This document shows, in pieces, positions 27,007 through 63,661 of a DNA stretch of 64,000 nucleotides (positions are counted from its first letter, which is position 1; each line of letters begins with the position of its first letter). The notes under the pieces were generated by a model, which worked only from the letters and a program-made list of their open reading frames with translations, searched no databases and had not been told where the DNA came from. Source of the DNA: Pseudomonas fluorescens (GTDB lineage Bacteria; Pseudomonadota; Gammaproteobacteria; Pseudomonadales; Pseudomonadaceae); the NCBI RefSeq assembly GCF_900636825.1, contig NZ_LR134318.1, forward strand, positions 4,263,501 through 4,327,500, given 5' to 3'. The position numbers and the translations under genes were made by a program.

Positions 27007-29100
27007 TTAGTCCGGCTTGCCGTTAATCACACCGGCAGTGTTGTCCATCAGGCTTTTAGTCGCCGTCTGCAGGAACGCTTCGAGTTTGTGTTTCAGCTCC
27101 GCAGTACGCGGCGCGTCAGCAATGACCTCGGCACTTGGGGTGGCGCCCAATTGGTACTGATAGATTTTTGCCGACATGTCCTTGTCTTTCGGCAGCACCA
27201 GAATCTGGTCAGCCGTGACGATGGCGGTGGTCTGCTCGCTGCCCGACGGTTTGATCACGCCGAAACCGGTGTCACCTTCCGGCAGATTGAGCAAGTCACG
27301 GCCCCAGCATTGATGACGTACTTCGCCGCCGAGACGCCCCATGATGGTCGGCACGATATCGATCTGCGTCCCCACGGTGTGGTTACGGGTGCCGAATTTC
27401 TCCTGCATGCCCGGCGCAATCATCAACATCGGCACGTTGAATCGACCCAAGTCCATTTCAGTAATCTGGCGCTCGTTACCGAATCCGTGGTCACCGACGA
27501 TGACGAACAGCGTTTCCTTGAAGTACGGCTCTTTACGCGCCTTTTCGAAGAACTGGCCCAGCGCCCAATCGGAGTAGCGCATGGCGGTCAGGTGTTCGTT
27601 GAGGCTGCCACGGTCGGTCACACGCTCGACCGGCAATGGCGACGGCAATGCGTATGGGGTGTGGTTGGACAAGGTTTGCAGCAGCGCATAGAACGGCTTG
27701 CCGTTTTCCCGCGCCTTCAATTCGATCAGACCGCGATCGAACATGTCCTGGTCGGACACGCCCCAGGTCGGATCGGAGAACACCGGGTCGACGAAGTCGT
27801 TACGGCCAACGAAGTTGGTCATGCCCTGATTGCTGAAGAACCCCGACTGGTTGTCCCAGGCGAAGTCACCGTTGTAGACATAGACGTCGTCGAAGTCACG
27901 CGCGCTGAGCAACTGCGGCAGACCGGACAGTTTGTGGCTGCCTTCCGGGGTCTGCATCAGGTATTCGAAACCCGGCAGATTGGGGAAGCAGGCCATGGTC
28001 GCGAACATGCCCTGGTGGGTGTGCGTGCCGTTGGAGAAGAAGCGGTCGAACAGCAGGCCTTCCTTCGACAGTTTGTCCAGGTAAGGGGTGATGTTGCCCG
28101 GCGCGCCCAGTGCACCGACCGAGTGACCGGCCATGCTTTCCATCAGGATCACGACGACGTTCTTGATCGGCAGGGTCTTGTCGGCCGGCGGCGTGTAGTC
28201 GCGGCGCACGGCAGCGATGTCGGCGTCGACCAGTTTGTCGTCTGGCATGACCAGCATCTCGCGTACCACTTTCTGCGCTTCTTCTTGCGGCAGCGTGGCT
28301 TTCCAGATGTTGTCGCGGTCTTCGCCCATGCGGTCCTTGGCGGCGGCGATCAACGACAACGTGCCATTGAGGCCGAGCTGGTTGGCGAAGTTGGAATCGG
28401 TGGTGTAGACGTCCCCCCAACGCATTGGCGGGCCCTGACGCAAAGTGCCGCGGGCGGCAATTACGCAAATCAGCAAACACACCACGAACACCGCCAGGCG
28501 GGTGTACCACGGCGCTACCTGACGGGTGCCGACGCTGCCGCCGCTGAATGGGCCGCGTGGCCGCGTTGCGCGATCGGCGCCTTTGAACGCCAGGGTCAGA
28601 ATTACCGTACCGACGACCCAGGCCAGCAGATAACGCACGACCGGGAAACCGTACCAAAGCATGCTCGCCACGGTTTTCGGGTCTTCCTTCACGTACTGGA
28701 ACACCAGACCGTTGAGGCGCTGGTGAAACTCGCGGTAGAAGTCCATCTCCATCAGACCGAGGAACAGTGCGATGCTCGACGCGACGGTCAGCCACAACCG
28801 GAAAAAGCCGCGCGCGGCCATGGCGCGGGCACTGAACAGCGCCAGCACCAGCGGAATGCAAAGGTAGACTACCAGGCGCAGGTCGAAACGCAGGCCATTG
28901 GCGAACGCTTCGAAGAAAGTCGCAGCCGGGGTATCAAGGATCATCTCGCGGTTGTAGACCAGCAGCGCGAGGCGCAGCACGGAAAACATCACCATCATGA
29001 CCAGCGCACAAAGTAACGTGTAGGCCAGATGCGATTTGACGGTCGGTTGCAGCAGGCGAGCAGAAGATCGCTGCTGATTCAGGGCGTCCGGGTTTGCCAT
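27007..29100 (-). CDS. LTA-synthase-like membrane sulfatase/phosphotransferase
   Basis: The protein has 697 residues. Five transmembrane helices (about 28-220) precede a large periplasmic alkaline-phosphatase-fold domain (about 320-600). Catalytic features are VVVILMESMAGHS, the nucleophile Thr region SNGTHTHQGMFA, and GDHGFG. The family includes LtaS and the Gram-negative phosphoglycerol transferases MdoB/OpgB. With no teichoic acids in Pseudomonas, a role in decorating periplasmic glucans or another envelope glycan with phosphoglycerol is plausible but inferred. It is monocistronic, with a shared terminator downstream. Confidence 0.85.
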   Translation of the reverse strand: MANPDALNQQRSSARLLQPTVKSHLAYTLLCALVMMVMFSVLRLALLVYNREMILDTPAATFFEAFANGLRFDLRLVVYLCIPLVLALFSARAMAARGFFRLWLTVASSIALFLGLMEMDFYREFHQRLNGLVFQYVKEDPKTVASMLWYGFPVVRYLLAWVVGTVILTLAFKGADRATRPRGPFSGGSVGTRQVAPWYTRLAVFVVCLLICVIAARGTLRQGPPMRWGDVYTTDSNFANQLGLNGTLSLIAAAKDRMGEDRDNIWKATLPQEEAQKVVREMLVMPDDKLVDADIAAVRRDYTPPADKTLPIKNVVVILMESMAGHSVGALGAPGNITPYLDKLSKEGLLFDRFFSNGTHTHQGMFATMACFPNLPGFEYLMQTPEGSHKLSGLPQLLSARDFDDVYVYNGDFAWDNQSGFFSNQGMTNFVGRNDFVDPVFSDPTWGVSDQDMFDRGLIELKARENGKPFYALLQTLSNHTPYALPSPLPVERVTDRGSLNEHLTAMRYSDWALGQFFEKARKEPYFKETLFVIVGDHGFGNERQITEMDLGRFNVPMLMIAPGMQEKFGTRNHTVGTQIDIVPTIMGRLGGEVRHQCWGRDLLNLPEGDTGFGVIKPSGSEQTTAIVTADQILVLPKDKDMSAKIYQYQLGATPSAEVIADAPRTAELKHKLEAFLQTATKSLMDNTAGVINGKPD

Positions 29101-40100: not shown

Positions 40101-40291
40101 CGAATAAGTCTTCGTAAAAATCACGGAAAAAGGGATGAAAACATCATCGCAGATCCGCCGGCCAATGCGATCGCCGAAACCCGCATGCCGGAGAATTAGG
40201 CATGAGACCCGGAGGAATCGTCATGGCCGCACCCGCCCCCGGCGCCCAGAATTCACCGCCTCACTTGTCACTGTTTTTTGCGAGGTCATCC

Positions 40292-41344
40292 ATGTACACC
40301 GCCATCGGCTATGCCGCCCAATCGGCCACCACTCCCCTCGCCCCGATGAAGTTCGAACGCCGCAGCCCGCGCGCCGACGATGTCGCCATCGAAATTCTTT
40401 ATTGTGGCGTTTGCCACTCCGACATCCATCAGGCTCGCAACGAATGGGGCATCGCTGTCTATCCGCTGATGCCCGGCCACGAGATCGTCGGAAAAGTCAC
40501 CGCCATCGGTACGAATGTCACCCGCCACAAAGTAGGCGATCTGGTAGGCGTCGGCTGCATGGTCGACTCCTGCCGCAGCTGCGAGGCCTGCCAGGCAAAC
40601 CTCGAGCAATATTGTCTCGAAGGCCCGACCATGACTTACGCCACGCCAGACCGCGTGGACGGCAGCAACACCATGGGCGGTTATTCGGACAGCATCGTTG
40701 TCAGCGAACACTTTGTGGTGCGCATCCCGGAACGTCTGGCATTGGCCAGCGCCGCGCCGATTCTCTGCGCCGGCATCACCACTTATTCGCCGCTCAAGCA
40801 TTACGGCGTCAAGGCTGGCGACAAGGTCGGGATTCTCGGCATGGGTGGTTTGGGCCACATGGGCATCAAGTTCGCCAAAGCGATGGGCGCCGAAGTCACG
40901 CTGTTCACCCGCTCGGCGAGCAAGGCAGAGGAAGGCCGTCGCCAAGGTGCTGATCATGTGATCGTGTCCACCGACGCCGAGCAAATGAAGGCTGCGGCCG
41001 GTTACTTCGATTTTCTGCTCGACACCATTCCGGTGCAGCACGACCTTAACCCCTACCTCGACACCCTGCGTTTTGACGGCGTGCACATTCTGGTCGGCCT
41101 GATCGAACCGATCGATCCGCCAGTGCACGCGGCCAAACTGGTGCTGGGGCGTCGGGTATTGGCCGGTTCGTTGATCGGTGGCGTTGCCGAAACCCAGGAA
41201 GTGCTGGATTTCTGCGCCGAACACAACATCACTTGCGACATCGAAATGCTCGACATCCGCCAGATCAACGAGGCTTATGCGCGAATGATCGCCGGCGACG
41301 TGAAGTACCGTTTCGTGATCGACATGGCAACGCTCAAGGTTTAA
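40292..41344 (+). CDS. Zinc NAD(P)-dependent alcohol dehydrogenase (YahK/CAD type)
   Basis: The 350-residue medium-chain dehydrogenase has catalytic zinc residues in YCGVCHSDIH and PGHEIVG, the structural zinc pattern C-x2-C-x2-C-x7-C in CRSCEACQANLEQYC, and NADP-type binding loop GILGMGGLGHMGIK. It resembles the E. coli YahK broad aldehyde reductases. ATG 40292 follows GAGG at normal spacing. Its stop overlaps the stop of the IclR gene by four bases. Confidence 0.88.
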   Translation: MYTAIGYAAQSATTPLAPMKFERRSPRADDVAIEILYCGVCHSDIHQARNEWGIAVYPLMPGHEIVGKVTAIGTNVTRHKVGDLVGVGCMVDSCRSCEACQANLEQYCLEGPTMTYATPDRVDGSNTMGGYSDSIVVSEHFVVRIPERLALASAAPILCAGITTYSPLKHYGVKAGDKVGILGMGGLGHMGIKFAKAMGAEVTLFTRSASKAEEGRRQGADHVIVSTDAEQMKAAAGYFDFLLDTIPVQHDLNPYLDTLRFDGVHILVGLIEPIDPPVHAAKLVLGRRVLAGSLIGGVAETQEVLDFCAEHNITCDIEMLDIRQINEAYARMIAGDVKYRFVIDMATLKV

Positions 41345-42144
41345 GCCTTTAAACCGAGTTCAGCCGACAGCCGGGCTGTGACCTCTTTGATCAGGGGAAT
41401 CAGCTCGGCCATTTTCTCCAGCGGCATGTACGGTACGGTGCTGGCGATACTGATCGCCGCCACGATGCCTTTGCTCGCATCCCGAATCGGCGCCGCCACG
41501 CAGCGGATCGACGGTTCGTTGTCTTCCAGATCGAACGCGTAGCCACCGGCGACGTATTCGGTCATGCGCTGCTCCAGCTGTTCCCAGGATTGCTGCGGAT
41601 GCTGCGGCCAGAACTGACTTTTCCCACCCGCCGGCAGGCTGATGTCGTACAGCCGCTGCCAATCTTTCGGCGCGTCATCGAGCATCAGCGCCTTGCCTAT
41701 CCCGGTGCGTGCCAGCGGCATGCGATGGCCAACGCGCGAGCGCATCTCCGGGCCATTGCGCCCCGGATTTTTCAGCAGATACAGAACCTCGTCGCCTTCG
41801 CGAATGCCCAGGTGCACGGTGTCGCCGGTGAGCGCCGACAACTCGTCCAGGTACGGCGCGGCCAGGGTCACCAGCGGCAATTCTTCGCGGGCCTGGAAAC
41901 CCAGTTCTATCAGCTTCGGCCCAAGCAGATACCCGATCTGCGGCACTACGCGCAGATAGCGTTCGTCGACCAGGCAACTGGCCAGACGATGGGTGGTGCT
42001 GCGCGTGGTGCCGATCAGCCGGGCGATTTCCTTGAGATCACGGGCGCCGCTGGCCACCGCATGCACCACCCCCAGGCCGCGCAATAGCGTCTGGGTACCG
42101 GTGGGCGCGGCGTCCTTGGTTTTTTCCGGGGCGTCTTCCTGCAT
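41341..42144 (-). CDS. IclR-family regulator of the galactonate operon
   Basis: The 267-residue protein has an N-terminal winged helix (about 15-80, GLGVVHAVASGARDLKEIAR) and a C-terminal IclR effector domain (about 95-260, ALTGDTVHLGIREGDEVLYL). It is last in the dgoK-dgoA-dgoD-MFS operon, so it very likely controls that operon with galactonate or a derivative as effector. The start ATG 42144 is inferred from family alignment; a longer frame has no better site. The TCCCATATTTTGGGA palindromes at 46634 and 58353 are candidate targets. Confidence 0.85.
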   Translation of the reverse strand: MQEDAPEKTKDAAPTGTQTLLRGLGVVHAVASGARDLKEIARLIGTTRSTTHRLASCLVDERYLRVVPQIGYLLGPKLIELGFQAREELPLVTLAAPYLDELSALTGDTVHLGIREGDEVLYLLKNPGRNGPEMRSRVGHRMPLARTGIGKALMLDDAPKDWQRLYDISLPAGGKSQFWPQHPQQSWEQLEQRMTEYVAGGYAFDLEDNEPSIRCVAAPIRDASKGIVAAISIASTVPYMPLEKMAELIPLIKEVTARLSAELGLKA

Positions 42145-42205: not shown

Positions 42206-43516
42206 CTACAACTCGATACGTTCGACCTTGCCGACCAACAGCACGTAGGACAAGGCACCTACCAGCGCAAGCACCGCGATGTAGGTAATCGCCGGCGCGA
42301 ACGAATCGCCGCTGGCGAGGAAGCCGATCACGATCGGTGTAGCGATGGCCGACAGGTTGCCGATGAAGTTGAACACGCCACCGGTCAGACCGAGCAACCG
42401 CGCCGGCGCCAGGGTCGAAACCAGCGACCAGGTGATCGAAGCCAGACCGTTACCGAAGAACGCCAGTGCGAGGAAGGCAATCACCAGCGGCGTCGACTCG
42501 ACAAAGTTGGCGCCAATGATCGAGGTCGAAATCAACAACCCACCAATGATCGGCAGCTTGCGCGCGAAGCCGACGGTATATCCACGGCGGATCAGGAAGT
42601 CGGAAAAGAATCCCGAACACAGCACACCGACGAACGCGGCAAGAAATGGCAGCGACGCGAGCAGCCCGGACTTGATGAAGTCCATGCCACGATATTTCAC
42701 CAGGTAGGTGGGGAACCAGGTGAGGAAAAACCACAGCGTCGAATTCAGGCAGAACTGGCCGAGGTAGATGCCCCACAACTTGCGTTTGCTCAGGACAATG
42801 CCCAAATCCGTCCAACTGAATTTGGCCTTGGCCTTGGCGGTTTCCGCCTGGATATCGACCAGCCCGCCACCTTCGCGGATCAGATCGATTTCCGCTTCGT
42901 TGACGCCTTTGAAATCCCGGGGTTCGCGATACACCGCGTACCAGATCAGCGCCCAGAGAATGCCCACCGCGCCGGTTGCGACGAACACCATGTGCCAGCC
43001 GAACGCGTGTTGCAGCCACGCCAGCACCGGGGTCAGAAATGCCAGACCGACAAACTGCCCGGAGGTATAGAAGCCGATGGCCGTGGCGCGTTCGCGCTCG
43101 GGAAACCAAGTGGTGACCACGCGGCTGTTGATCGGATAGGCCGGTGCTTCCAGCGCACCAACGGCCATGCGCAGGACGAACAGAGCGATGAAGCTGCTGA
43201 CGAAACCGAGCATCACCGTGGCCACCGACCACAGCAGCAGCGCGACGCTGTAGAGGATCCGCGGCGGCACCCGATCCACCAGCCAGCCGCCGGGAATCTG
43301 CATCGCGGCGTAAGTCCAACCGAAGGCGGAGAAAATCAGGCCGACGTGAACCGGATCGATGCCCAGCTCGCTGGTCAGCGCCGGCGCGGCAATCGACAGG
43401 TTGCTGCGGTCGAGGTAGTTGATGACCACGGTGATAAACAGCAACACCATGATGAAAAACCGCTTGCGGCTAGGCGTGACTAAAGACGCCTGCCCGGAAA
43501 GGGTGTGCGTTTGCAT
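42206..43516 (-). CDS. dgoT: MFS sugar-acid transporter (galactonate, DgoT-like)
   Basis: The 436-residue permease of the anion:cation symporter group in the major facilitator superfamily has twelve transmembrane segments and the conserved YLDRSNLSIA start of helix 1. The same subfamily holds E. coli DgoT and GudP/ExuT. Lying between dgoD and the IclR gene, it should import D-galactonate with protons. GAGG lies eight bases before the ATG. Confidence 0.8.
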   Translation of the reverse strand: MQTHTLSGQASLVTPSRKRFFIMVLLFITVVINYLDRSNLSIAAPALTSELGIDPVHVGLIFSAFGWTYAAMQIPGGWLVDRVPPRILYSVALLLWSVATVMLGFVSSFIALFVLRMAVGALEAPAYPINSRVVTTWFPERERATAIGFYTSGQFVGLAFLTPVLAWLQHAFGWHMVFVATGAVGILWALIWYAVYREPRDFKGVNEAEIDLIREGGGLVDIQAETAKAKAKFSWTDLGIVLSKRKLWGIYLGQFCLNSTLWFFLTWFPTYLVKYRGMDFIKSGLLASLPFLAAFVGVLCSGFFSDFLIRRGYTVGFARKLPIIGGLLISTSIIGANFVESTPLVIAFLALAFFGNGLASITWSLVSTLAPARLLGLTGGVFNFIGNLSAIATPIVIGFLASGDSFAPAITYIAVLALVGALSYVLLVGKVERIEL

Positions 43517-43710: not shown

Positions 43711-44859
43711 TCACCACTCGGCAAAGCTGCCATCGGCATGACGCCAGATCGGGTTGCGCCAGCGGTGGCCGACTGCCGCGCGCTCGATCACGTATTCCTC
43801 GTTGATCTCGATGCCGAGCCCCGGGCCGTTGGGGATTTTTACGAAGCCCTTGTCGTAATCGAAGACGCGCGGGTCTTTCACGTAGTCGAGCAGGTCGTTG
43901 CTCTCGTTGTAATGAATGCCCAGGCTTTGCTCCTGGATAAACGCGTTGTAACAAGCGGCGTCCAGTTGCAAACAGGCGGCCAGCGCGATCGGCCCCAGCG
44001 GGCAATGCAGCGCCAGCGCCACGTCGTAGGCTTCAGCCATGTTGGCGATCTTGCGGGTTTCGGTGATGCCGCCCGCATGAGACGCATCAGGCTGGATGAT
44101 GTCGACGTAGCCTTCGCTCAACACGCGTTTAAAGTCCCAGCGCGAGAACAACCGCTCGCCGAGCGCAATCGGTGTGCTGGTCAGCGGCGCCAGTTCTTTC
44201 AGGGCCTCGTAGTTTTCGCTGAGCACCGGCTCTTCGATAAACATCAGTTTGTACGGGTCGAGTTCCTTCATCAGCACTTTGGCCATCGGCTTGTGCACGC
44301 GACCATGGAAGTCGACGCCGATACCGACGTTCGGCCCGACGGCGTCACGCACGGCGGCGACGTTGGCCAGCGCCAGATCAACCTTCTCGAAGGTGTCGAG
44401 GAACTGCAGCTCTTCGGTGCCGTTCATTTTCACCGCGGTGAAACCTCGGCTCACCGCTTCTTTCGCTGCACGTGCGGTGTCGGCCGGGCGGTCGCCGCCG
44501 ATCCACGAATACACACGAATCTTGTCTCGCACCTGGCCACCGAGCAGGTCACTCACCGACACCCCGAGCGCCTTGCCCTTGATGTCCCACAGCGCCTGAT
44601 CGATACCGGCCAGCGCGCTCATATGGATCGCGCCGCCCCGGTAGAAGCCCCCGCGATACAGCACGGTCCAGATGTCTTCGATATTGCGTGGGTCTTTGCC
44701 GATCAGGTAGTCGGACAATTCTTCTACGGCAGCAGCCACGGTGTGCGCCCGGCCTTCGACCACGGGTTCGCCCCAACCAGTCACACCCTCATCGGTTTCG
44801 ACCTTGAGGAAGCACCAGCGCGGCGGGACGATGAAGGTCGTGAGTTTGGTGATTTTCAT
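43711..44859 (-). CDS. dgoD: D-galactonate dehydratase
   Basis: The 382-residue enolase-superfamily enzyme is close to E. coli DgoD over its full length (shared [68 protein letters not shown], and the C-terminal [16 protein letters not shown]). It removes water from D-galactonate to give 2-dehydro-3-deoxygalactonate. Mg2+ ligands are in DFHG, EEP and the AGER-like ALGERLFS motif. Confidence 0.93.
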
Positions 44860-44921: not shown

Positions 44922-45542
44922 TTAACGAAGCGCTTTCCATGCGGCCACATAGGCCTTGGCATTGACTGCCACTTGCTCTGGCGTCATGCCCGGTTTGAAC
45001 AGGCCGGAACCGAGACCGAAACCTTTCACGCCAGCGTCGATGAACGCCTGCATGTTGTCCGGCGTGATGCCGCCGACCGGCGCCAGCACGGTCCCGGACG
45101 GCAACACCGCGAGCCAGGCCTTGACGACCGCCGGGCTCATTTGTTCGGCCGGAAACAGCTTGAGAACGTCGGCGCCCTCGGCTAGTGCCGCGAAGGCTTC
45201 GGTCGGCGTTGCCACGCCTGGCGACAGGAACAGCCCCGCCGCTTTCGCCGCGCGCAAAACCTTGGCATCGCTGTGCGGCATGACGATCACTTGGCCGCCA
45301 GCCGCTTTTACCTGTTCGACCTGTTCCAGGGTCAACACTGTGCCAGCGCCGATCAGGCAATCGGCGGGCAGTGCATCGCGCAGGATGCGGATACTTTCGT
45401 ACGGCGAAGGGGAATTGAGCGGTACTTCGATGACGCGAAATCCGGCGGCATACAGGACTTCTCCGACAGCGGCAGCTTGCTGCGGGTGCAGGCCACGCAG
45501 AATCGCGATCAGACCGTTTTGTGCCAGTGCTTGCTTGAGCAT
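44922..45542 (-). CDS. dgoA: 2-Dehydro-3-deoxy-6-phosphogalactonate aldolase
   Basis: The 206-residue class I aldolase of the KDPG/KDPGal family has LIAILRGLHPQQA, GAGTVLTLEQVEQVKAAGGQ, the Schiff-base lysine in DVLKLFPAEQ, and VGGITPDN. It splits KDPGal to pyruvate and glyceraldehyde-3-phosphate. GGAGG lies before the ATG and it follows dgoK by 19 bases. Confidence 0.92.
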   Translation of the reverse strand: MLKQALAQNGLIAILRGLHPQQAAAVGEVLYAAGFRVIEVPLNSPSPYESIRILRDALPADCLIGAGTVLTLEQVEQVKAAGGQVIVMPHSDAKVLRAAKAAGLFLSPGVATPTEAFAALAEGADVLKLFPAEQMSPAVVKAWLAVLPSGTVLAPVGGITPDNMQAFIDAGVKGFGLGSGLFKPGMTPEQVAVNAKAYVAAWKALR

Positions 45543-45561: not shown

Positions 45562-46551
45562 TTAACGGGATGAGGAATCGATCAATCCGGCGGCCAGCGC
45601 CAGTCGCCACAGACCACGCTCGGTGGCCTGCTCGGCCAACGTCACGTTGGCAAACCCACAGGTGTCGAGGGCACGGCTGTAGCGCGAACAAAGTTGCGCG
45701 TTGCCGATGAGGACGATCGAAGGGAGATTGGGATTGTCGCGGCGATTGCGCTGCACATTGGCCAGCGCTGTCAGTTCGTGGCCGATCATCAGGCCGGACA
45801 GATAATCCGCCTGCGCGGTCGGGCTCAGCTCCCCGGTCAGGCCAAGCGTACGCGCGCTGAACAGCGTCGACAGCACGCCGAGCGCACCGTCCGCCGACTG
45901 CGCGACCTGCACGCCCCGGTCAAATGCCGGAGCATCGAACGCTGCGCCTTGCTGCTGGGTTCGCCCCAGAATGCTGTGTTCACTGAGCACCGCGAACACT
46001 TCGCCGGTCATGAACGTGTCGAAATGGGTGATGCAGCCATCGACTACGTTTACCCATTTGGAATGACTGCCCGGCAGACCGATCAGCAGATTGTTGCCGG
46101 TCTCGAGGGGCAGATTCTGCAGCACGCCAAGGACTTGGGTTTCTTCGCCGCGCATGACATTCGGCAACCGCGAACGCTGAATCACGCCCGGCACGATATG
46201 CACACGGCTGCCGCGAAGACTCGTCACTGTTTGTAGGGAATTTCCGAGATTGGCGACATTTGCTGGCGTATCGCAGTAGGCCGCTTCACGCCAGCCCTGC
46301 GCACTGCCGACCATGCCGCACGCGATCACCGGCAGATCCGGCTGCGCGTCGAGCCAATCACCGCAGGCCTCATCGAAAGCCAGCTCAAAGCCGTCGACGC
46401 ATTCGCGACCATTGATGATCCGCGGAGTCTTCGGCAGTTGCATGATCCCGGAAGACAGCGAGCGCTGCTCCAGCACCACACCGTCCGCCGCGAGTTTGTA
46501 AGCACGTAATGAGGTGGTCCCCCAATCGAGCGCGATCAATTGCGCCTGCAT
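45562..46551 (-). CDS. dgoK: 2-Dehydro-3-deoxygalactonokinase
   Basis: The 329-residue DgoK-family kinase (MQAQLIALDWGTTSLRAYKL, GLPGSHSKWV) uses ATP to phosphorylate 2-dehydro-3-deoxygalactonate at C6. It is first in the dgo operon, with AGGTGAAG before the ATG and a well-defined promoter and palindrome upstream. Confidence 0.92.
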   Translation of the reverse strand: MQAQLIALDWGTTSLRAYKLAADGVVLEQRSLSSGIMQLPKTPRIINGRECVDGFELAFDEACGDWLDAQPDLPVIACGMVGSAQGWREAAYCDTPANVANLGNSLQTVTSLRGSRVHIVPGVIQRSRLPNVMRGEETQVLGVLQNLPLETGNNLLIGLPGSHSKWVNVVDGCITHFDTFMTGEVFAVLSEHSILGRTQQQGAAFDAPAFDRGVQVAQSADGALGVLSTLFSARTLGLTGELSPTAQADYLSGLMIGHELTALANVQRNRRDNPNLPSIVLIGNAQLCSRYSRALDTCGFANVTLAEQATERGLWRLALAAGLIDSSSR

Positions 46552-46589
46552 CGCTTCACCTGTTTTGTTTTTGGCAGTGAGTGCGACGG

Positions 46590-46649
46590 ACTATAAACCC
46601 AGGAGGGCTAAAATCTCAATATATAAATATCAGTCCCATATTTTGGGAC
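46590..46649 (-). promoter_or_regulatory. dgo operon promoter and palindromic operator
   Basis: Reading on the minus strand: palindrome GTCCCAAAATATGGGAC (46633-46649), then TTGAGA (46614-46619) as -35, an 18-bp spacer, and TATAGT (46590-46595) as -10. The start point would be near 46583, about 32 nt before dgoK. An almost identical arrangement recurs at 58309-58367. Confidence 0.7.
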
Positions 46650-46655
46650 GAAAGC

Positions 46656-46729
46656 AAAAAAGATCGCAGCCTGCGGCAGCTCCTACAGTCGTTACCTTGT
46701 GTAGGAGCTGCCGCAAGCTGCGATCTTTA
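46656..46729. repeat. REPIN, family A
   Basis: AAAAGATCGCAGCCTGCGGC and its inverted copy, between the dgo promoter and the downstream end of the GNAT gene. Confidence 0.92.
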
Positions 46730-48816: not shown

Positions 48817-48825
48817 ATGACGCCC

Positions 48826-48903
48826 ACTGTAGGAGCTGCCGAAGGCTGCGATCTGTTGATCTTGAAAAGCTAAAGATCGCAGCCTTCGGCAGCTCCTACA
48901 GTA
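48826..48903. repeat. REPIN, family A
   Basis: ACTGTAGGAGCTGCCGAAGG with its GCTGCGATC tail and the inverted partner, sharing the GCCTTCGGC tip sub-type. Confidence 0.92.
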
Positions 48904-53555: not shown

Positions 53556-54527
53556 TTAGCGCTGCTTAAGGCGGTCAATCACCACGGCCAGCAACAGAAT
53601 CGAACCACGGATCACATACTGATAAAACGTGTCGATGTTTTTCAGGTTCATCGCATTCTCGATGATCGCCAGAATCAACACCCCGGCAATCACATGGCGG
53701 ATCATGCCAATCCCTCCACTCAGCGAAACCCCGCCCAACACACAGGCAGAAATCACCGTCAGCTCGAAGCCCTGACCAATCATCGGCTGCCCGGAGGTCA
53801 TCCGCGACGCCAGAATCACACCCGCCAACGCGCCGATCACACCGTGCACCGCGAAGATGATGATTTTGGTGCGATCAACGTTGACGCCCGCCAGCAGCGC
53901 CGCTTCCTGGTTGCCACCGATGGCCATGGTGTTGCGCCCGTAGGTGGTGTAATTCAGCAGCCAGCCGAAAAACAGAAAGCAGACGATGGTGATCAGGATC
54001 GGCACCGGCACGCCGAACAACTGGCCGTTGCCGAACACGAAGAACGATTCCTGCGATACGCCCACCGCTTTGCCGTTGGCGAAAATGTACGCCAAGCCAC
54101 GGACGATCTGCATCGTCGCCAGCGTGGTGATCAGCGCATTGACGCGCAATTTGGCGATCACGATGCCGTTGATCAGCCCCACGATCAGGCCCATCACCAA
54201 TGCTGCGCTGACGCCGAGAAAGACGCTGTCGGTGTCGCGCATCACCACTGCCGCAACCACACCGGCACAGGCGATCACCGATCCGACCGAGAGGTCGAAA
54301 TGCCCGGACGCCAGGCAGTACAGCATGGTGCACGCCGCGATGCCGGTGGTGGAAATCGCAAGGCCCAGACCACGCATGTTCAGCGGCGAAAGAAAGTTAT
54401 CGATCAGCAGCGTGCAGGCGACAAAAATGCCGATCGCCGCCAGCAGCATGACCCAGTCATCGAGGAAGCGGCGCATGTCGAGCGGTTTGCGCTGGGTCGG
54501 CAGGGTTTCGTTTTGGGTAGTCATCAT
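53556..54527 (-). CDS. araH: Sugar ABC transporter permease (AraH type)
   Basis: The 323-residue permease has eight to ten transmembrane helices and the BPD-2/RbsC signature GNQEAALLAGVNVDRTKIII. Following araF and araG it is the membrane part of an L-arabinose/galactose-type importer. ATG 54527 is chosen because AGAGG lies five bases before it; GTG 54533 is also open. Confidence 0.87.
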   Translation of the reverse strand: MMTTQNETLPTQRKPLDMRRFLDDWVMLLAAIGIFVACTLLIDNFLSPLNMRGLGLAISTTGIAACTMLYCLASGHFDLSVGSVIACAGVVAAVVMRDTDSVFLGVSAALVMGLIVGLINGIVIAKLRVNALITTLATMQIVRGLAYIFANGKAVGVSQESFFVFGNGQLFGVPVPILITIVCFLFFGWLLNYTTYGRNTMAIGGNQEAALLAGVNVDRTKIIIFAVHGVIGALAGVILASRMTSGQPMIGQGFELTVISACVLGGVSLSGGIGMIRHVIAGVLILAIIENAMNLKNIDTFYQYVIRGSILLLAVVIDRLKQR

Positions 54528-54536
54528 AGTCACCTC

Positions 54537-56084
54537 TCAGTTCGCCACGCCGTCAGCGCGTTGGCGCGGCAAAGCCAGTTGCAGCAGGTTGGATTCGTTG
54601 GCCTGGTCGCGGTTGATTTCACCGCGCAAGGCGCCTTCGCACAGCACCAGAATACGGTCGGAGATGCCCATCACTTCCATCAGGTCGCTAGACACCACGA
54701 TCACCGAAATGCCGTCCGCGGCAAGGTTATGGATGATCTGGTAAATCTCGGCTTTGGCGCCGATGTCGATGCCGCGAGTGGGCTCGTCGAGCAGCAGGAC
54801 TTTCATCGGCATCGACAGCCAGCGACCGAGAATGGCTTTCTGCTGGTTGCCGCCGGAAAGAAATTTGATCTGCTGCCCGGCGTGCGGAGTTTTCACTTTC
54901 AGGGCTTTGATCTGCTTGTCGGCGTTGCCCTTTTCCCACAGGCCACGGATCAGACAGCCGAGGCCGGAATGCGCACCGCGCGCACTGATGTTGATGTTCT
55001 CGGCGACGCTGGCCAGCGGGATGATGCCTTCTTTCTTGCGGTCTTCCGGGCACAACAGAATGCCCGCAGCAATCGCATCACGCGGTGAACGCAATTTCAG
55101 TTCGTGACCACGCAATTCGAGACGGCCAGCGGTGTTGCGCTCAAGGCCACTGAGCAGGCGAAACAGTTCGGTGCGCCCTGCCCCGACCAGCCCGAACAGG
55201 CCAAGGATTTCGCCCTTGTGCGCCTCGAAACTGATCGGCTCGCGCAGCCCTGGACCGAGCAAACCGTCGACTTTCAATGCCACGGCGCCGCGCGGGCGAT
55301 GGCGGTAATCGTAGATATCCTGAATGTCGCGACCGACCATGCAGGTCACCAGTTGATCGTGGGTCAACTGACTCATGTCTTCGAACGTGCGCACATAGCG
55401 GCCATCCTTGAACACCGTGACGGCGTCGCAGATGCGGAAAACTTCTTCCATACGATGGGAAACATAGAGGACCACTTTGCCCTCATCGCGCAGGCGGCCG
55501 ATGATTGCCATCAAGCGGTCAATTTCCCGCGCCGAAAGGCTGCTGGTCGGTTCGTCAAAGGCAATCACATGGGCGCCGCGCGACAGTGCCTTGGCGATTT
55601 CCACCAATTGGCGTTGGCCCAGTGACAACCGCCCGACCTTGGTCTGCGGATCGATTTCATCGGCCAAGCCTTTGAGGCAATTCAAGGCTTTCTGGCGTAG
55701 CTCACTGCGATTGATCAAGCCGAAACTGGCCGGCAGATGGCCGAGGAACAGGTTCTCGGCCACGGTCATTTCCGGGACCAGATGCAATTCCTGGTGAATC
55801 ACTGCGACGCCGCTGCCGATGCTGTCGGCGGTGGACTTGAACGCCATCGCCTGCTCGCCGATCTGCAACTCGCCGCTGCTCGGGATGTAGGCACCGCCGA
55901 GAATCTTCAGCAGGGTCGATTTGCCGGCGCCGTTCTCGCCCATCAAGGCATGAACCTGACCCGGATGCGCGACGAAACTGATGCCGTCCAGCGCCTTCAC
56001 ACCCGGAAAGGTCTTGCCGATGCCGTTAAAGCGCAGGCTGCCACTGGCGCCGTGTTGTTCTTGTGTCTGTACTTGCGCGTGCAT
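54537..56084 (-). CDS. araG: Sugar ABC transporter ATPase, two domains (AraG type)
   Basis: The 515-residue protein has two ATP-binding domains. The first has [16 protein letters not shown] near residue 55 and [16 protein letters not shown]; the second has the usual degenerate A loop [16 protein letters not shown] and [16 protein letters not shown]. It is close to E. coli AraG throughout ([26 protein letters not shown]). It drives import of the sugar delivered by the binding protein. GAGG precedes the ATG. Confidence 0.9.
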
Positions 56085-56137: not shown

Positions 56138-57142
56138 TCAGTTCCACAAGCCGATTTTTTCCAGCTCTTGCTTGAAGTTTTCGCGGGTGATCAGGGTGAC
56201 GTCATCCATGGCGGTGTACTTCGGCGGTTCTTTGCCGGCAGTGATCCACTCGTACATCATCTCGGCGGTCTTGTAGCCTTCGATGTGCGGGCTTGGCAGC
56301 ATCGAACCGAAGAAGCCGCTGTTAGGCTTTTTCAACTCGCCAATGGCGTCGGTGCCGTTGATGCCAATGCCGATCACGTTGGTCGCGGCAAAACCGGCCG
56401 CTTCGGTAGCCCGTACGCCGCCGAGCACGGTGTTGTCGTTCATGCCGCCGATGATCAGGTTTTTCGCCGCGCCTGGCAGTTTCACCAGCGCCGAGTTGGT
56501 GGCGTCCATGCTGCCAGGTACGTCGAGGGTTTTCAGCGCGGCGAAGAGGATGTGATCCTCAGGCATGCCGGCCTTCTTCAGAGCATCGACCGAACCGTCG
56601 GTGCGCTTCTTGCCAGTGTCGAGTTCGTTGTAGGTGTTGACCACCGCGTAGGTGTCTTTCCAGTCCCAGTTACGCTTCTTCGCTTCGGCGGCCATGGCGG
56701 CGCCCTGCTTCTGGCCGACTTCGAACGCAGCCATGCCCAGGTACGGCACGTCTTCCATGAATTTGCCGCTGGCATCGACGAAACGGTCGTCGACGGCGAT
56801 CACTTTGAGGTCATTGAGTTTGGCTTTGGCCATGATCGCCGGGCCGAGCGACACATCCGGTGGGCAGATCACAAAGCCCTTGGCGCCATTGGCGGCCAGG
56901 CTGTCGATAGCCGAGAGGGTTTTCTCGCCATCCGGCACGGCGATTTTGATCAGTTCAAAGCCTTTGTCCTTGGCGGCTTTCTCGGCAAAAGCCCATTCGG
57001 TCTGGAACCAAGGTTCTTCGGCCTGCTTGACCAGAAAACCGATCTTCACCGCGTCGGCGGCGAGCAGCGCACTGCTCAAGCTGAACGCAGTAACCGCCAG
57101 GGCAGTGCTGCACAGGGTACGAATCCCGAATCGACGTTTCAT
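56138..57142 (-). CDS. araF: Periplasmic sugar-binding protein (AraF type)
   Basis: The 334-residue protein has a signal peptide (about 1-28, ending SALLAADA) and a two-lobed periplasmic domain with strong similarity to E. coli AraF (KIGFLVKQAEEPWFQTEW, IKIAVPDGEKTLSAIDSLAA, NDNTVLGGVRATEAAGF). E. coli AraF binds L-arabinose, D-fucose and D-galactose. The same spectrum is plausible here and would fit the galactonate genes. Confidence 0.88.
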   Translation of the reverse strand: MKRRFGIRTLCSTALAVTAFSLSSALLAADAVKIGFLVKQAEEPWFQTEWAFAEKAAKDKGFELIKIAVPDGEKTLSAIDSLAANGAKGFVICPPDVSLGPAIMAKAKLNDLKVIAVDDRFVDASGKFMEDVPYLGMAAFEVGQKQGAAMAAEAKKRNWDWKDTYAVVNTYNELDTGKKRTDGSVDALKKAGMPEDHILFAALKTLDVPGSMDATNSALVKLPGAAKNLIIGGMNDNTVLGGVRATEAAGFAATNVIGIGINGTDAIGELKKPNSGFFGSMLPSPHIEGYKTAEMMYEWITAGKEPPKYTAMDDVTLITRENFKQELEKIGLWN

Positions 57143-57278: not shown

Positions 57279-58097
57279 TCAGTCGTGGTACATCACCGAA
57301 CGTCCGCCATCGAGGGTGATACACGACGCGTTGATGAACGGCGCTTCATCACTGGCCAGAAAAACCGCGGTCATGGCCACTTCGATCGGCTGGCCGATGC
57401 GTTTCGGCGGGTGCAGATCGAACGCGCGCTGGCGCTCGGCATGCGGGTCGGCGAAACCGTTCCAGTAGTCGACGTTGAGCTGCGTTTCGATATACCCCGG
57501 GGCAATGGCGTTGACGCGAATGCCTTTGGCGGCATATTCGATGCCGAGTGCGCGGGTCAGCCCGAGTAAACCGTGTTTGGCCACCGGGTACGGAAAGCAG
57601 CCGGGGATGATGTGGCTGGAATGGGTCGAGGCGATGTTGATGATGCTGCCGACGCCCTGCTCGATCATCTGCGGCAGCACGGCTTTGCAGCCAAACCAGG
57701 CGCCATCCAGATCGATGGCGAAGCAGCGGCGCCAATCTTCTTCGGTCATCTGCAGCGGGTCGCGAAACACGTTGACCCCGGCACAGTTGATCAGTACATC
57801 GATGCGTCCGTGCCGTTCAACGGCAAGTCTGGCCATGGCGTGCAAGTCGCTCTGGGCTGAGACATCCGCCTGCATCGCCTGCACATCATGGCCCTGCTCG
57901 CGCCAATGCGCGGCGACGCGTTCAACTTTGTCGGCCTGGATATCGCTGATCACCAATTTGGCCTGCTGCGAGGCGAAAGCGGCGACGATGGCTTCGCCGA
58001 TGCCTTGAGCTGCACCGGTCAGCAACACCACTTTGTTGCGCAAACGCTCGCCCTTCGGCGGCGCAGGCACCGGCGGCAGCGAAAGAGGTTCAGCCAT
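57279..58097 (-). CDS. SDR sugar 1-dehydrogenase, probable
   Basis: The 272-residue classical SDR has TGAAQGIG for cofactor binding, NCAG, and YPVAKHG for catalysis with a preceding Ser in INIASTHSSH. Lying between a lactonase and an aldose importer, it most likely oxidises D-galactose, L-arabinose or D-fucose to the aldonolactone. AGGAGG lies eight bases before the ATG. A known alternative in Pseudomonas uses a Gfo/Idh-type galactose dehydrogenase, so the substrate remains an inference. Confidence 0.78.
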   Translation of the reverse strand: MAEPLSLPPVPAPPKGERLRNKVVLLTGAAQGIGEAIVAAFASQQAKLVISDIQADKVERVAAHWREQGHDVQAMQADVSAQSDLHAMARLAVERHGRIDVLINCAGVNVFRDPLQMTEEDWRRCFAIDLDGAWFGCKAVLPQMIEQGVGSIINIASTHSSHIIPGCFPYPVAKHGLLGLTRALGIEYAAKGIRVNAIAPGYIETQLNVDYWNGFADPHAERQRAFDLHPPKRIGQPIEVAMTAVFLASDEAPFINASCITLDGGRSVMYHD

Positions 58098-58254
58098 GGA
58101 TCAGGCCTCCTGTTTTGCGCGCGCAAAAAAACCGGCCATCAATCGATGTCCGGTTTTGGTGGCTGCGGCAATGCAACAGGCAGGCGTCGCTGACGGCATT
58201 GAGCCGTGGCGATACGCGGATCCCGCTTGCGCGGGCAATAAGAATTCGCTGCAT
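58090..58254 (-). CDS. Possible 54-residue leader ORF
   Basis: ATG 58254 has the same AGGTGAAG ribosome site and surroundings as dgoK. The frame (MQRILIARASGIRVSPRLNA at its start) runs to a TGA eight bases inside the SDR gene. It spans the attenuator-like terminator. It may be a leader peptide, or the stump of a lost gene that once followed the duplicated promoter. Confidence 0.4.
   Translation of the reverse strand: MQRILIARASGIRVSPRLNAVSDACLLHCRSHQNRTSIDGRFFCARKTGGLIHG
58125..58155 (-). terminator. Attenuator-like intrinsic terminator in the SDR leader
   Basis: On the minus strand AACCGG-A-CATC and GATG-G-CCGGTT pair around GATT, followed by seven T. It lies between the promoter at 58309-58338 and the SDR start codon, so it would stop most transcripts unless read through. 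Confidence 0.75.
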
Positions 58255-58308
58255 CACTTCACCTGTTTTGTTCTTTTTAAGTGTGAGTGCGTGTTACTGC
58301 TGGAGCCG

Positions 58309-58367
58309 ACTATAAACCCGACCGCCAAATAATCTCAATATATAATTTTGCATCCCATATTTTGGGA
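58309..58367 (-). promoter_or_regulatory. Second copy of the dgo-type promoter and operator
   Basis: On the minus strand TCCCAAAATATGGGA (58353-58367), TTGAGA (58333-58338), an 18-bp spacer and TATAGT (58309-58314). All spacings equal those of the dgo promoter. The palindrome begins one base beyond the lactonase stop codon. The start point would be near 58302. Confidence 0.7.
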
Positions 58368-58368
58368 T

Positions 58369-59244
58369 TTAACCAGCAAAACGCGTACAGAGTTTTCCTG
58401 CAACGTCGACGCGCATGCTCAACACCGCGCCATCCAGGGGATGGTTGAGCGGACTTTTCGCGCTGGTGATGTACAAGGTCTTCAGATCTTCACCACCGAA
58501 TACGCAACTGGTTGGGCGGCTGACCGGCAGATCGATTTTGCGATCCACTTGCCCATCCGGCGTCAGCCGCAACAGGCAACTGCCGTCCCAACGCGCGTTC
58601 CACACGTAGCCTTCGGCGTCCATTGCCGAGCCGTCGGGGCCACCGTTTTGCTCCGACGCGTAAAAGACCTGCGCGGCATCGAGACTGCCGTCGGTGCGGA
58701 TGAAATATCGATTGAGCGTGCCGTCGAGACTTTCACCAAACAGCAACGTGGTGCCGTCATCACTCCACAACAAGGTATTTGGAATGCCCAGCCCGAGCAG
58801 CAGCGGTGTCACGCGCTGGTCGGGATCGATGCGAAACAGGCCACCGGAGCGGCGGACGATCGACAGGTCTTCGCCCTGCTCGCCGATGTTGTTTTGCATG
58901 GTGCCGAGCCATAACCGGCCCAGCGCATCACAGCGGGCTTCGTTGGGCCGATTGCCGGGTTGCGGGTCGGCGACGCAGAATAACGTGAGACGCGGTTCGA
59001 GCCCTGGCGAGTCGAGATCAAGGCGATAGACGCCGCTGCTCAGTGTCACCAGTGCATCGCCGCTGTTGCAGGGAATGAATGCGGAAATGTGCTCGGGCAT
59101 TTGCCAGATCTGCACGTTCTGGCCGATCAGGCGCAAAGCCTGCTTGCCTGCAATATCGACCCAGTACAGCGCCTGGGTCGGCGCGTCCCAGAACGGGCCT
59201 TCACCAAGTTGCGCGCGGTGTTGGGTCAGAGCGGTGCACGACAT
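58369..59244 (-). CDS. SMP-30/gluconolactonase-family sugar lactonase
   Basis: The 291-residue six-bladed beta-propeller hydrolase has metal ligands expected in QLGEGPFW (Glu near 15), RPNEARCD, GIPNTLLWS and GGPDGSAMD. It should open an aldonolactone (galactono- or arabinono-lactone) to the acid. ATG 59244 (MSCTALTQHRAQ) is preferred since AAGGA sits seven bases upstream; ATG 59250 is too close to it. Confidence 0.87.
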   Translation of the reverse strand: MSCTALTQHRAQLGEGPFWDAPTQALYWVDIAGKQALRLIGQNVQIWQMPEHISAFIPCNSGDALVTLSSGVYRLDLDSPGLEPRLTLFCVADPQPGNRPNEARCDALGRLWLGTMQNNIGEQGEDLSIVRRSGGLFRIDPDQRVTPLLLGLGIPNTLLWSDDGTTLLFGESLDGTLNRYFIRTDGSLDAAQVFYASEQNGGPDGSAMDAEGYVWNARWDGSCLLRLTPDGQVDRKIDLPVSRPTSCVFGGEDLKTLYITSAKSPLNHPLDGAVLSMRVDVAGKLCTRFAG

Positions 59245-59276
59245 ATCCATTCCTTCATGTTCTTGTTGTTTTTCAT

Positions 59277-59365
59277 TGTAGGAGTGAGCCTGCTCGCGAT
59301 GGCGGTCTGTCAGGCGACATCATTGATATTGAACCACCGCTATCGCGAGCAGGCTCACTCCTACA
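59277..59365. repeat. REPIN, family C
   Basis: TGTAGGAGTGAGCCTGCTCG and its inverted copy, between the FadR-type regulator gene and the lactonase gene. Confidence 0.92.
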
Positions 59366-59378
59366 GAGGTACCGGGTT

Positions 59379-60095
59379 TCAGCTGGCTTTTTTGTCAGCC
59401 ATGACTTTCGGGTAAAAGCGTTTGATCGCCAGATCCGCATTGTCGATCAAGGTCATGCAGGCCCACACGCCACGTGCGGAATCCCGGGCGGCAATGGCGT
59501 CGGCCATGTCTTTGTGAATGGGAAGCGTGCGGCGCAATTCATCAGGATCAGCGGCAGAAACTTCGAACGAAACCGCGAGCAAAGCGCCGAGCGCCGGGAC
59601 CATTTGTTCGATGAACTGGTTATGGCTCGCAGCCAGAATGCATTCATGAAAGGACTGGTCGGCGCGGTTGTAATCGACATTACTGTCGACGGCGCGCTCA
59701 AGGGCGTTGTACGCCAACTGCACCGCGTCGATCTGTTCCTGGGTCGCGCGCTCGCAAGCCCAGCGCACCGCCATCGGCTCGATAGTGCGGCGCAGGTCGA
59801 GCAGGTCATCGACGAAGTTTTCCGGCAAGCCGTTGCGCGAAAGCCAACCGACGACTTGCGGATCGAACAGATTCCAGCGTCGCACCGGCAGGACGCGAGT
59901 GCCGACTTTCGGCCCCACTTCCAGCATGCCTTTAGCAACGAGGGTTTTGATTGCTTCGCGAATCACCGTGCGGCTGACACCGAGCTGCTCGCCCAGGTCG
60001 GCTTCGACTTTGATGGTCTGCCCAGGCTTGACCTGACCAGCAGCAAGCCAGCTGCCGAGCCAGTCGACCGTCGACGCATGAAAACTGCTGGACAT
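59379..60095 (-). CDS. GntR-family regulator, FadR/FCD subfamily
   Basis: The 238-residue protein has an N-terminal winged helix (about 10-75, EADLGEQLGVSRTVIREAIK) and a helical FCD effector domain (about 90-220, metal-binding DxxxH/H pattern). ATG 60095 follows GAGG. E. coli DgoR is of the same subfamily, so a galactonate-type effector is credible. It probably represses itself and araFGH through the 14-mer operators. Confidence 0.85.
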   Translation of the reverse strand: MSSSFHASTVDWLGSWLAAGQVKPGQTIKVEADLGEQLGVSRTVIREAIKTLVAKGMLEVGPKVGTRVLPVRRWNLFDPQVVGWLSRNGLPENFVDDLLDLRRTIEPMAVRWACERATQEQIDAVQLAYNALERAVDSNVDYNRADQSFHECILAASHNQFIEQMVPALGALLAVSFEVSAADPDELRRTLPIHKDMADAIAARDSARGVWACMTLIDNADLAIKRFYPKVMADKKAS

Positions 60096-60127
60096 GAACA
60101 CCTCAAAGCGGATCGCGTTGGGTGCCT

Positions 60128-60156
60128 ACGCTAATCATCATACGATTGAGTGTCAA
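60128..60156 (-). promoter_or_regulatory. Promoter and operator of the FadR-type regulator
   Basis: On the minus strand TTGACA (60151-60156), a 17-bp spacer, and TAGCGT (60128-60133). The 14-mer ATCGTATGATGATT (60133-60146) fills the spacer, which would block RNA polymerase when bound. Confidence 0.6.
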
Positions 60157-60160
60157 CGAC

Positions 60161-60234
60161 AAAAAAGATCGCAGCTCTCGGCAGTTCCCCGAGGTGTACA
60201 CCCTGTAGGAGCTGCCGAAGGCTGCGATCTTTTA
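60161..60234. repeat. REPIN, family A
   Basis: AAAAAAGATCGCAGCTCTCG on the left (slightly decayed) and GTAGGAGCTGCCGAAGGCTG on the right, between the regulator promoter and the DUF1285 stop. Confidence 0.9.
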
Positions 60235-60792
60235 AGGTTCGAGACCGATGCGAAAGAATTCGCCGCGACTCCAGACGCCAAGCCAACGCTGGCCGTCGAT
60301 TTCGCGGCTGACCGCCAGGTTCACCATTTGATAAAAGACATTGCGGTGAATCAGCGCCTCGAGATTGCTGCGCACATGAACATAGGGCGCGGGCTCTTGG
60401 GTTGTCGGATCGATTTCGACACGGATCGGATGCTCAGGCCCGGCCTCGGCGGTTTCCTCGACGTTGATGGTAAAGCGCAAAACCTGCGCCTCGCCCTCGC
60501 CTTCGACCTCAACGGAAATCGCCACAAACGGCGCATCGTCGACCTTGATTCCAACCTTCTCGACCGGGGTGATCAGGAAATAATCGTCACCATCGCGGCG
60601 GATGATGGTGGAGAACAGTTTGACCATCGGCTTGCGCCCGATCGGCGTGCCCAGGTAATACCAGGTGCCGTCACGGGCGATGCGCATGTCGATGTCGCCG
60701 CAAAAATCCGGATTCCATAAATGCACCGGCGGCAGGCCTTTGGTTTTGGGGATTTGTCCCAACAGGTCATTGGCTGTTTGCTGGCCACTCAT
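60232..60792 (-). CDS. DUF1285 protein
   Basis: The 186-residue cytoplasmic protein has the DUF1285 pattern: a segment around HLWNPDFCGDIDMRIARDGT, GTWYYLGTPIGRKPMVKLF, and DDYFLITPVEKVGIKVDDAP. The family is widespread in proteobacteria, and crystal structures are known but no function is. GAGGAGAACGCC lies before the ATG. It is 15 bases from the DUF4823 gene and probably co-transcribed with it. Confidence 0.85.
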   Translation of the reverse strand: MSGQQTANDLLGQIPKTKGLPPVHLWNPDFCGDIDMRIARDGTWYYLGTPIGRKPMVKLFSTIIRRDGDDYFLITPVEKVGIKVDDAPFVAISVEVEGEGEAQVLRFTINVEETAEAGPEHPIRVEIDPTTQEPAPYVHVRSNLEALIHRNVFYQMVNLAVSREIDGQRWLGVWSRGEFFRIGLEP

Positions 60793-63328: not shown

Positions 63329-63542
63329 AAGAAAAAAGGTCTGAAGGGTCAAAATTCGAAGCCGCGTATTATGCCTAACTTGCGCAAAAAAGCACGGTTC
63401 ATCGACTGAATCTGTGTTTCTCGTTCATTTTGAGAACGTTTTCGGGGCAATGAGAACTCAACTGAAGCAAACGTATTCCAAATTTGTTTAAAAACCCCGG
63501 CCGCCTCACTGGACTGCACGCCAGACTGATCAATACTTGAAC
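63329..63542. other. Intergenic region upstream of the candidate small RNA
   Basis: About 214 bp. It holds the TetR promoter on the minus strand and, at its right end, a CAATACTT element (63531-63538) that could be a sigma-S type -10 for the small RNA. Confidence 0.45.
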
Positions 63543-63661
63543 TGTCGGCCGACATCTCCCCCAAGTGTCGCGCCGATAAAGGTACCAACGGACCGCGTGC
63601 CTTTGTTTTACTCCTAATGGTCTTAACCCGGATTCACCCCCCAGAACCCGGGTTTTTTTTG
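63543..63661 (+). ncRNA. rgsA: Candidate RgsA small RNA
   Basis: A strong intrinsic terminator (AACCCGG...CCGGGTT followed by eight T, ending at 63661) closes a region of about 120 nt without a credible plus-strand ORF. Upstream is a sigma-S-like CAATACTT box. In P. aeruginosa the RpoS- and Gac-linked RNA RgsA (P16, about 120 nt) lies between PA2958 and the tatD-family gene PA2959; the same neighbours are present here. The exact 5' end is a guess. The call rests on position, size and terminator. Confidence 0.6.

Follow-up and report, generated by a model that had tools for sequence, protein, structure and literature searches.

A copied promoter-operator module in Pseudomonas that probably places galactose and galactonate operons under one IclR-family regulator

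Gene content of the two clusters

The window, the whole stretch of 64,000 nucleotides of Pseudomonas fluorescens DNA that was analysed, carries two groups of sugar-related genes, all on the minus strand, which were assigned by comparison with protein family models. Cluster A comprises dgoK, dgoA, dgoD, a dgoT-type gene of the MFS class and iclR. The dgoK product (45562..46551), 2-keto-3-deoxygalactonokinase, scores 326.6 bits with PF05035 (cut-off 25) and has no match in NCBIfam; dgoA (44922..45542) matches NF006600 at 292.5 bits (cut-off 207); dgoD (43711..44859), encoding galactonate dehydratase, matches NF010624 at 708.4 bits (cut-off 311); and the dgoT-like MFS transporter (42206..43516) matches the D-galactonate transporter model TIGR00893 at 419.8 bits (cut-off 395). 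In the IclR-family regulator encoded at 41341..42144, both the N-terminal winged helix-turn-helix domain (PF09339, 42.8 bits, cut-off 22) and the C-terminal effector domain (PF01614, 104.9 bits, cut-off 24) exceed their cut-offs. A zinc alcohol dehydrogenase gene (40202-41344), convergent to iclR, adjoins it in many relatives, whether iclR there follows dgoT or araH.

Cluster B begins with a FadR-type (GntR/FCD) regulator gene (59379..60095; PF07729, PF00392) and an SMP-30/gluconolactonase-like lactonase gene (58369..59250; PF08450, 246.2 bits), which lies just upstream of a second promoter. Behind that promoter follow genes for an SDR dehydrogenase (57279..58097; NF005469, 447.6 bits, cut-off 306), a periplasmic sugar-binding protein (56138..57142; PF00532, 180.2 bits, with no NCBIfam model at cut-off), an AraG-type ATPase (54537..56084; NF008442, 815.7 bits, cut-off 689) and an AraH-type permease (53556..54527; NF008441, 511.3 bits, cut-off 378).

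In the De Ley-Doudoroff route, galactose is oxidised to galactonate, which is then processed by DgoD, DgoK and DgoA (PMC6927180). The latter set is complete in cluster A, with NF010624, PF05035 and NF006600 all above cut-off. The putative dehydrogenase and lactonase of cluster B are placed by family alone (SDR and SMP-30); galactose and arabinose are proposed as the probable substrates of the SDR enzyme, a candidate 1-dehydrogenase, from gene context, and cluster B probably imports and putatively oxidises these sugars. Clusters A and B would then form successive stretches of one pathway, which explains why they should be under shared control. An earlier, sequence-only reading of this DNA had held that nothing in the coding regions accounts for a shared promoter, a statement that the proposed pathway does not support; its linking of galactonate breakdown with an aldose importer is supported, both promoters carrying the element described below and both operons probably serving one pathway.

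Two copies of one promoter-operator module

Upstream of dgoK and of the SDR gene lie two modules, both on the minus strand and 11.7 kb apart, that share a common layout: an operator, TCCCAAAATATGGGA, followed by 14 bp, TTGAGA, 18 bp, TATAGT, an A-rich tract, CAGGTGAAG, two bases and ATGCAG. The operator reads TCCCAAAATATGGGA because both copies act on the minus strand; in forward-strand letters it is TCCCATATTTTGGGA, found exactly at 46634-46648 and 58353-58367. At dgoK this palindrome (46634..46648), delimited by exact match and by column conservation over 57 distinct sites, precedes a promoter (46590..46619) with its -35 box TTGAGA at 46619-46614 and, across 18 bp, its -10 box TATAGT at 46595-46590. 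Downstream, alignment and motif counts define an A-rich AANAANAA tract (46572-46563) and the ribosome site CAGGTGAAG (46562-46554), together spanning 46554..46572 and common to the second copy. The second operator (58353..58367), located by exact match and by the end of the neighbouring ORF, begins one base past the lactonase stop codon and is followed by the SDR-ara operon promoter (58309..58338), again TTGAGA, 18 bp and TATAGT, with 10 of 12 consensus positions matched; a promoter scan of 57900-60400 returned one such site, where shuffled sequences gave a mean of 0.8.

Alignment of the two upstream regions confirms their similarity: a blastn search of the 64-kb window with 46552-46660 returned, besides the query itself, 58308-58367 (62 columns, 82%, E 2.7e-9) and 58257-58276 (20 columns, 95%, E 0.004), the next match in the window having an E-value of 2.1. 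The sequence-only reading had proposed about 100 bp of shared sequence, and of this the ribosome site with its start surroundings, the TTGAGA and TATAGT boxes and the 18-bp spacer stand, but not continuity, as the second copy holds some 16 extra bases between -10 and ribosome site that break the similarity. The palindrome had been put 15 bases from the -35 box; the gap measures 14 bp in both copies. The shared start surroundings likewise need qualification, since ATGCAG was copied but the second ATG is not the start of the SDR gene: the motif coincides with dgoK's own start (46551) in the first region, and the ATG of the second region, at 58254, precedes the SDR start (58097) by 157 bp and opens a short ORF.

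When TCCCATATTTTGGGA was scanned for with up to three mismatches, only the same two places were found in the window, giving four matches counting both strands, a number reached by one of 100 shuffles (mean 0.82). The exact operator occurs at no third place in the whole 6.03-Mb genome; one additional operator-like site, with two mismatches, lies at 2851634, and a search of this genome for half an operator plus the -35 block, allowing three mismatches, gave none beyond the two modules. No riboswitch or leader family of Rfam matched at either promoter at E-values up to 0.5. Elsewhere in the window, microRNA-family matches at 46660-46727 and 48825-48903 fall below their gathering scores, the former on an inverted GTAGGAGCTGCCGCA repeat that by eye appears REP-like, and the RgsA sRNA (RF00628, 177.7 bits) is encoded at 63459-63651.

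Conservation of the element across the genus

Among 199 Pseudomonas genomes, the loose pattern TCCCA-N5-TGGGA-N12..16-TTGA matched in 82, comprising 75 in which the full element is recognisable by eye, its gap measuring 14, and seven with chance-like matches only (G015, G018, G051, G092, G121, G132 and G171); a reversed pattern, used as control, matched in six genomes. DgoK was found in 129 of the 199, its matches running over one TGA in G006, G037, G044, G048, G059, G070 and G141. Coordinates place the strict element at a distance of 64-81 bp from the DgoK match in 65 of these 75 genomes. Upstream DNA of the other 64 dgoK genomes was scored with a 36-column matrix trained on 57 distinct strict sites, four MFS-type sites (see below) included: 61 scored between 33.2 and 61.3 bits, and three (G001, G164 and G172) had no element upstream of dgoK by this matrix (-52 to -62 bits). 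Second-best scores in long loci were below -10, except for a true second copy in L152. The element thus precedes dgoK in 126 of 129 dgoK genomes, and the palindrome and spacings that the sequence-only reading expected to find in related Pseudomonas are indeed kept; the 70 genomes without dgoK, searched with the strict pattern, contained no convincing match.

A sample of 80 loci, taken as the best of 299 Pseudomonas relatives, gave a similar picture, although it is not independent, because several of these loci share assemblies with the 199-genome set. A dgoK gene was present in 78, and 77 of these carry the element; three loci were set apart from this count, L203 and L205, which lack dgoK, and the 78th dgoK locus, L180, whose contig ends 76 bases before the gene. 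In 40 regions around strict sites, mostly from genomes with a single site, the element stands before dgoK or the SDR-ara operon with four exceptions. In these (L039, L053, L054 and L059) the operator occurs once more, joined to a variant promoter, before another MFS gene, the next gene in L053 and L059 resembling, by eye, a 2-hydroxyacid dehydrogenase gene; such MFS-type sites may mark a third target or, possibly, a paralogous regulator.

Of 210 distinct elements, a set that excludes the MFS-type sites apart from a shorter locus (L009) of the one in G085, 208 have TTGAGA and 206 have a TANNNT hexamer across a spacer of 18. Conservation is highest in the right arm of the operator and in the TTGAGAT block. 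In the 126 dgoK genomes the bases between -35 and -10 drift while operator and spacing stay, and the TTAYATATTGAGAT block, which contains the -35 box, is conserved beyond the need of a -35. A second palindrome over the -35 box, TTAYA-N3-TGAGA, hinted at by a distant homologue (L275), was considered and rejected, the dyad symmetry of this block over the 210 elements being background-like (0.36, within 0.02-0.46 over the centres tested).

A leader ORF and hairpin before the import operon

The copied ATG of cluster B opens a leader ORF of 54 codons (58090..58254, minus strand), which runs from ATGCAG to a stop inside ATGGCTGA, the SDR start. Within it lies a terminator-like hairpin with a T run (58125..58157; -18.7 kcal/mol for the fold of 58111-58161), although a simple terminator scan did not list it. 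The leader thus has the two features sought in an attenuator, an ORF and an intrinsic-terminator-like hairpin before the first gene. In 48 of 52 genomes with a window-type cluster B the copied ATG opens such an ORF, of 26 to 56 codons in nine lengths, and the stop falls at +8 relative to the SDR start in 36 genomes, at -3 in 11 and at +16 in one. A stem with T run is present between the two starts in 46 of the 48 ORF-bearing leaders, against 16 of 144 shuffles. The remaining four (L255, L260, L268 and L270) were set apart before ORFs and hairpins were counted; there the SDR gene starts directly at the copied ribosome site, and no such hairpin was found. Six leaders of a clade in which IclR is encoded behind araH also start the SDR gene at this site, and in this clade the SDR protein has the first residues of DgoK, MQAQ, at its N terminus, an indication that copying proceeded from dgo to ara. 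In raw counts, the AANAANAA tract, which we take to be of the type bound by Hfq/Crc, lies at the ribosome site in 52/52 window-type ara leaders, 6/6 of the other clade and 23/43 dgo leaders.

Translation of the leader ORF would run through the hairpin and end at the SDR start, so that expression of the operon would probably depend on the copied ribosome site. We offer tentatively, as a rather doubtful proposal, that the dgo promoter, copied along with the ribosome site and first codons of dgoK, placed a sequence-independent, Hfq/Crc-gated attenuator before the import operon. If this were true, leader translation would keep RNA polymerase past the terminator and hand ribosomes to the SDR start, and catabolite repression acting at a single start codon would shut off transcription of the whole operon. 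The ORF and hairpin may instead be leftovers with no regulatory role, for example a displaced lactonase terminator, a reading that is separate from the question of the regulator and that we hold to be quite conceivable, if still short of probable. It would accommodate the direct SDR starts in four of the 52 genomes and in the six other-clade leaders, as well as the failure of a conserved leader peptide, a candidate we rejected because variation is spread about evenly over the three codon positions and the reading frame through the hairpin differs between genomes. The other two frames over the same spans are open in 15 and 20 of the 48 genomes, and shuffles of four single leaders left the frame open in 16-36% of cases; the open frame alone is therefore not remarkable, but its fixed end is. 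A leftover would not be expected to stop within -3..+16 of the SDR start in 48/48 ORFs of nine lengths, nor does it account for translation passing straight into SDR where the ORF is missing; the leaders are, however, related, and the 48 are not independent cases.

Distribution of the IclR regulator and its association with the element

With homologues accepted at E <= 1e-70, the window's IclR protein is represented in 128 of the 199 genomes, comprising 125 that bear the element together with G001, G164 and G147; in the 126th element-bearing genome, G080, the iclR gene is split in two pieces. Among the 70 genomes without dgoK, only G147 has a homologue at this cut-off, and outside the genus a search at E <= 1e-68 matched one of 274 genomes of the class, which was the window's own. 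Because iclR usually forms an operon with one of its presumed targets, part of this co-occurrence reflects shared inheritance among related genomes.

Of 45 IclR sequences, representing part of the loci, 23 follow dgoT, 13 follow araH and nine have another or an unread neighbour, and the tree requires seven changes among these three labels. In 13 loci (L074-L086) iclR is not beside dgo and in most cases closes the ara operon instead, yet the dgo promoter retains the element in all 13; G168, for example, has dgoK at about 32 kb and iclR at 4.47 Mb. Three of the loci (L074, L079 and L080) end before the ara promoter and do not count among the eight whose ara side was read; seven of these eight have the element before the gene for the SDR or for the binding protein, its left arm weakened in most cases (36 to 58 bits). 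The eighth, L077 (G179), counts against the assignment: iclR lies behind araH, with no SDR match and no element in the upstream stretch. In L081 (G052) and L084 (G032) no ara or dgo genes were found beside iclR, and the distant dgo promoter again keeps the element.

The homologues of G001, G147 and G164 are only 51-53% identical to the window's protein, with RSTTHRL of the helix region invariant, and in 3/3 a weaker element (18.6-21.2 bits) immediately precedes iclR, with homologues of dgoA or of dgoK-dgoA following the gene. This placement connects the motif with IclR by a route that does not involve the dgoK promoter. G172 (L150), the only dgoK genome with no IclR match, retains dgoK-dgoA and has no element; decay of the whole locus explains this joint absence equally well, because dgoD and dgoT are gone from it. 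At that locus dgoD, dgoT and iclR were not found beside dgoK-dgoA, which apparently lie directly behind a GNAT-type gene.

A predicted two-operon regulon and its alternatives

The regulator common to both promoters is most probably the IclR protein of 41341-42144, as the sequence-only reading had suggested from a single genome; its distribution, the persistence of the dgo element where iclR has left and the weaker element before distant iclR genes all argue for this assignment. On these comparisons we favour, as the probable explanation of the whole, a galactose/galactonate regulon of Pseudomonas defined by two copies of one promoter module and controlled by IclR, most likely through repression. 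Cluster B, with the lactonase just upstream, would take up and oxidise D-galactose and probably L-arabinose; cluster A (dgoKADT) would follow the De Ley-Doudoroff route from galactonate to pyruvate and glyceraldehyde 3-phosphate. IclR, whose gene closes the dgo operon, would bind TCCCA-N5-TGGGA at a putative site centred near -58, a position estimated for a transcription start some seven bases beyond the -10 box, and would probably also contact the adjoining TTAYATATTGAGAT block with its -35 box. Repression would be lifted by galactonate or 2-keto-3-deoxygalactonate, turning both operons on together.

The promoter is close to consensus and the block covering its -35 box is conserved, a combination that suggests repression. 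When dgoKAD of P. fluorescens SBW25 was supplied with its native promoter, P. putida grew slowly on galactose after a 52-h lag, and the portion of that report consulted mentions no regulator gene in the construct (PMC6927180). This outcome fits repression, on the assumption that the host, KT2440, lacks IclR, but the long lag counts against it.

A position near -58 would be suitable for an activator as well, and the same regulon might be run by the same IclR protein in the opposite sense, recruiting RNA polymerase from about -58 in the presence of galactonate, which we regard as possible though unlikely. PcaU/PobR-type IclR proteins are activators, and PcaU operators combine a palindrome with a further direct repeat. 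Comparable features here are the position of the operator upstream of the -35 box, the concentration of conservation in the right arm and TTGAGAT block, and the self-similarity of the right arm, which is best at offsets of 19-20 bp (0.52; next 0.41) and recalls that additional repeat. To be set against them are boxes so close to consensus (10/12), unusual in an activator-dependent promoter, and the SBW25 promoter's delivery of enough dgoKAD for slow growth of P. putida (PMC6927180).

Control of both promoters by the FadR-type protein (59379-60095) would parallel E. coli, where DgoR, a GntR/FadR repressor of dgo, responds to D-galactonate (PMC12288454), and its gene does adjoin cluster B. Homologues at E <= 1e-70 occur in 65 of the 199 genomes, all element-bearing, but are missing from 61 of the 126 element-bearing genomes. 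Operators of the FadR subfamily contain TKGT-N3-ACMA boxes (PMC4494728), which are absent from the operator described here; the window contains a single such site, at 27662 (mean of 2.47 by chance), which is near neither promoter. We therefore reject this protein as the common regulator, on distribution and on the missing type of site, and give the possibility very little weight. Twelve genomes have the FadR-type gene at 71-77% identity in a position remote from dgo or on a different contig. That the promoter was simply duplicated and kept by chance, with no common regulator, is scarcely credible: the copies do have their leader and start codon in common, as expected of a copied segment, but the operator and its spacing persist at dgoK in 126 genomes in which the -35/-10 interval drifts, conservation was not confined to copies that are nearly identical overall, and a weaker element precedes iclR homologues only about half identical.

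Relation to known systems and implications

The proposed regulon resembles E. coli dgo in having a local regulator of galactonate breakdown. In E. coli, two closely spaced inverted repeats overlap the promoter, and D-galactonate is the effector of DgoR, a protein unrelated to IclR (PMC12288454). DgoR belongs to the GntR/FadR family, uses TKGT/ACMA-type sites and controls dgo, whereas here an IclR protein would act through TCCCA-N5-TGGGA on two operons. Within the IclR family the window's protein can be likened to KdgR, on the protein alone: the NCBIfam model NF011671 covers nearly its whole length at 103.5 bits, far below the cut-off of 275 and so outside the KdgR family as modelled, and the KdgR effector domain (1ysp) is among its matches of solved structure. 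It also matches TIGR02431, the PcaR/PcaU/PobR group, at 92.5 bits (cut-off 284.75), but that group serves aromatic-acid pathways, unlike the setting found here. As for the cluster B leader, the trp and his leader peptides offer a parallel, in that ribosomes translating a short ORF ahead of the first gene likewise pass through a terminator-like hairpin; here, in distinction, the peptide is unconserved, the stop couples to the next start and an A-rich tract of the presumed Hfq/Crc type is present.

No description of this regulon or operator was found in openly licensed literature, among the matches listed. We regard the predicted regulon as new, comparatively well supported and of a known kind; the leader of cluster B may be unusual. 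IclR seems to take in Pseudomonas the place that FadR-type DgoR has in E. coli. For oxidative galactose use in this large genus, associated with plants and soil, the comparisons made here would name the regulator, its operator and a pair of target operons, a regulon that would be useful for engineering strains to grow on galactose, and the leader ORF may represent a device for transcript control built by copying a promoter together with its start codon.
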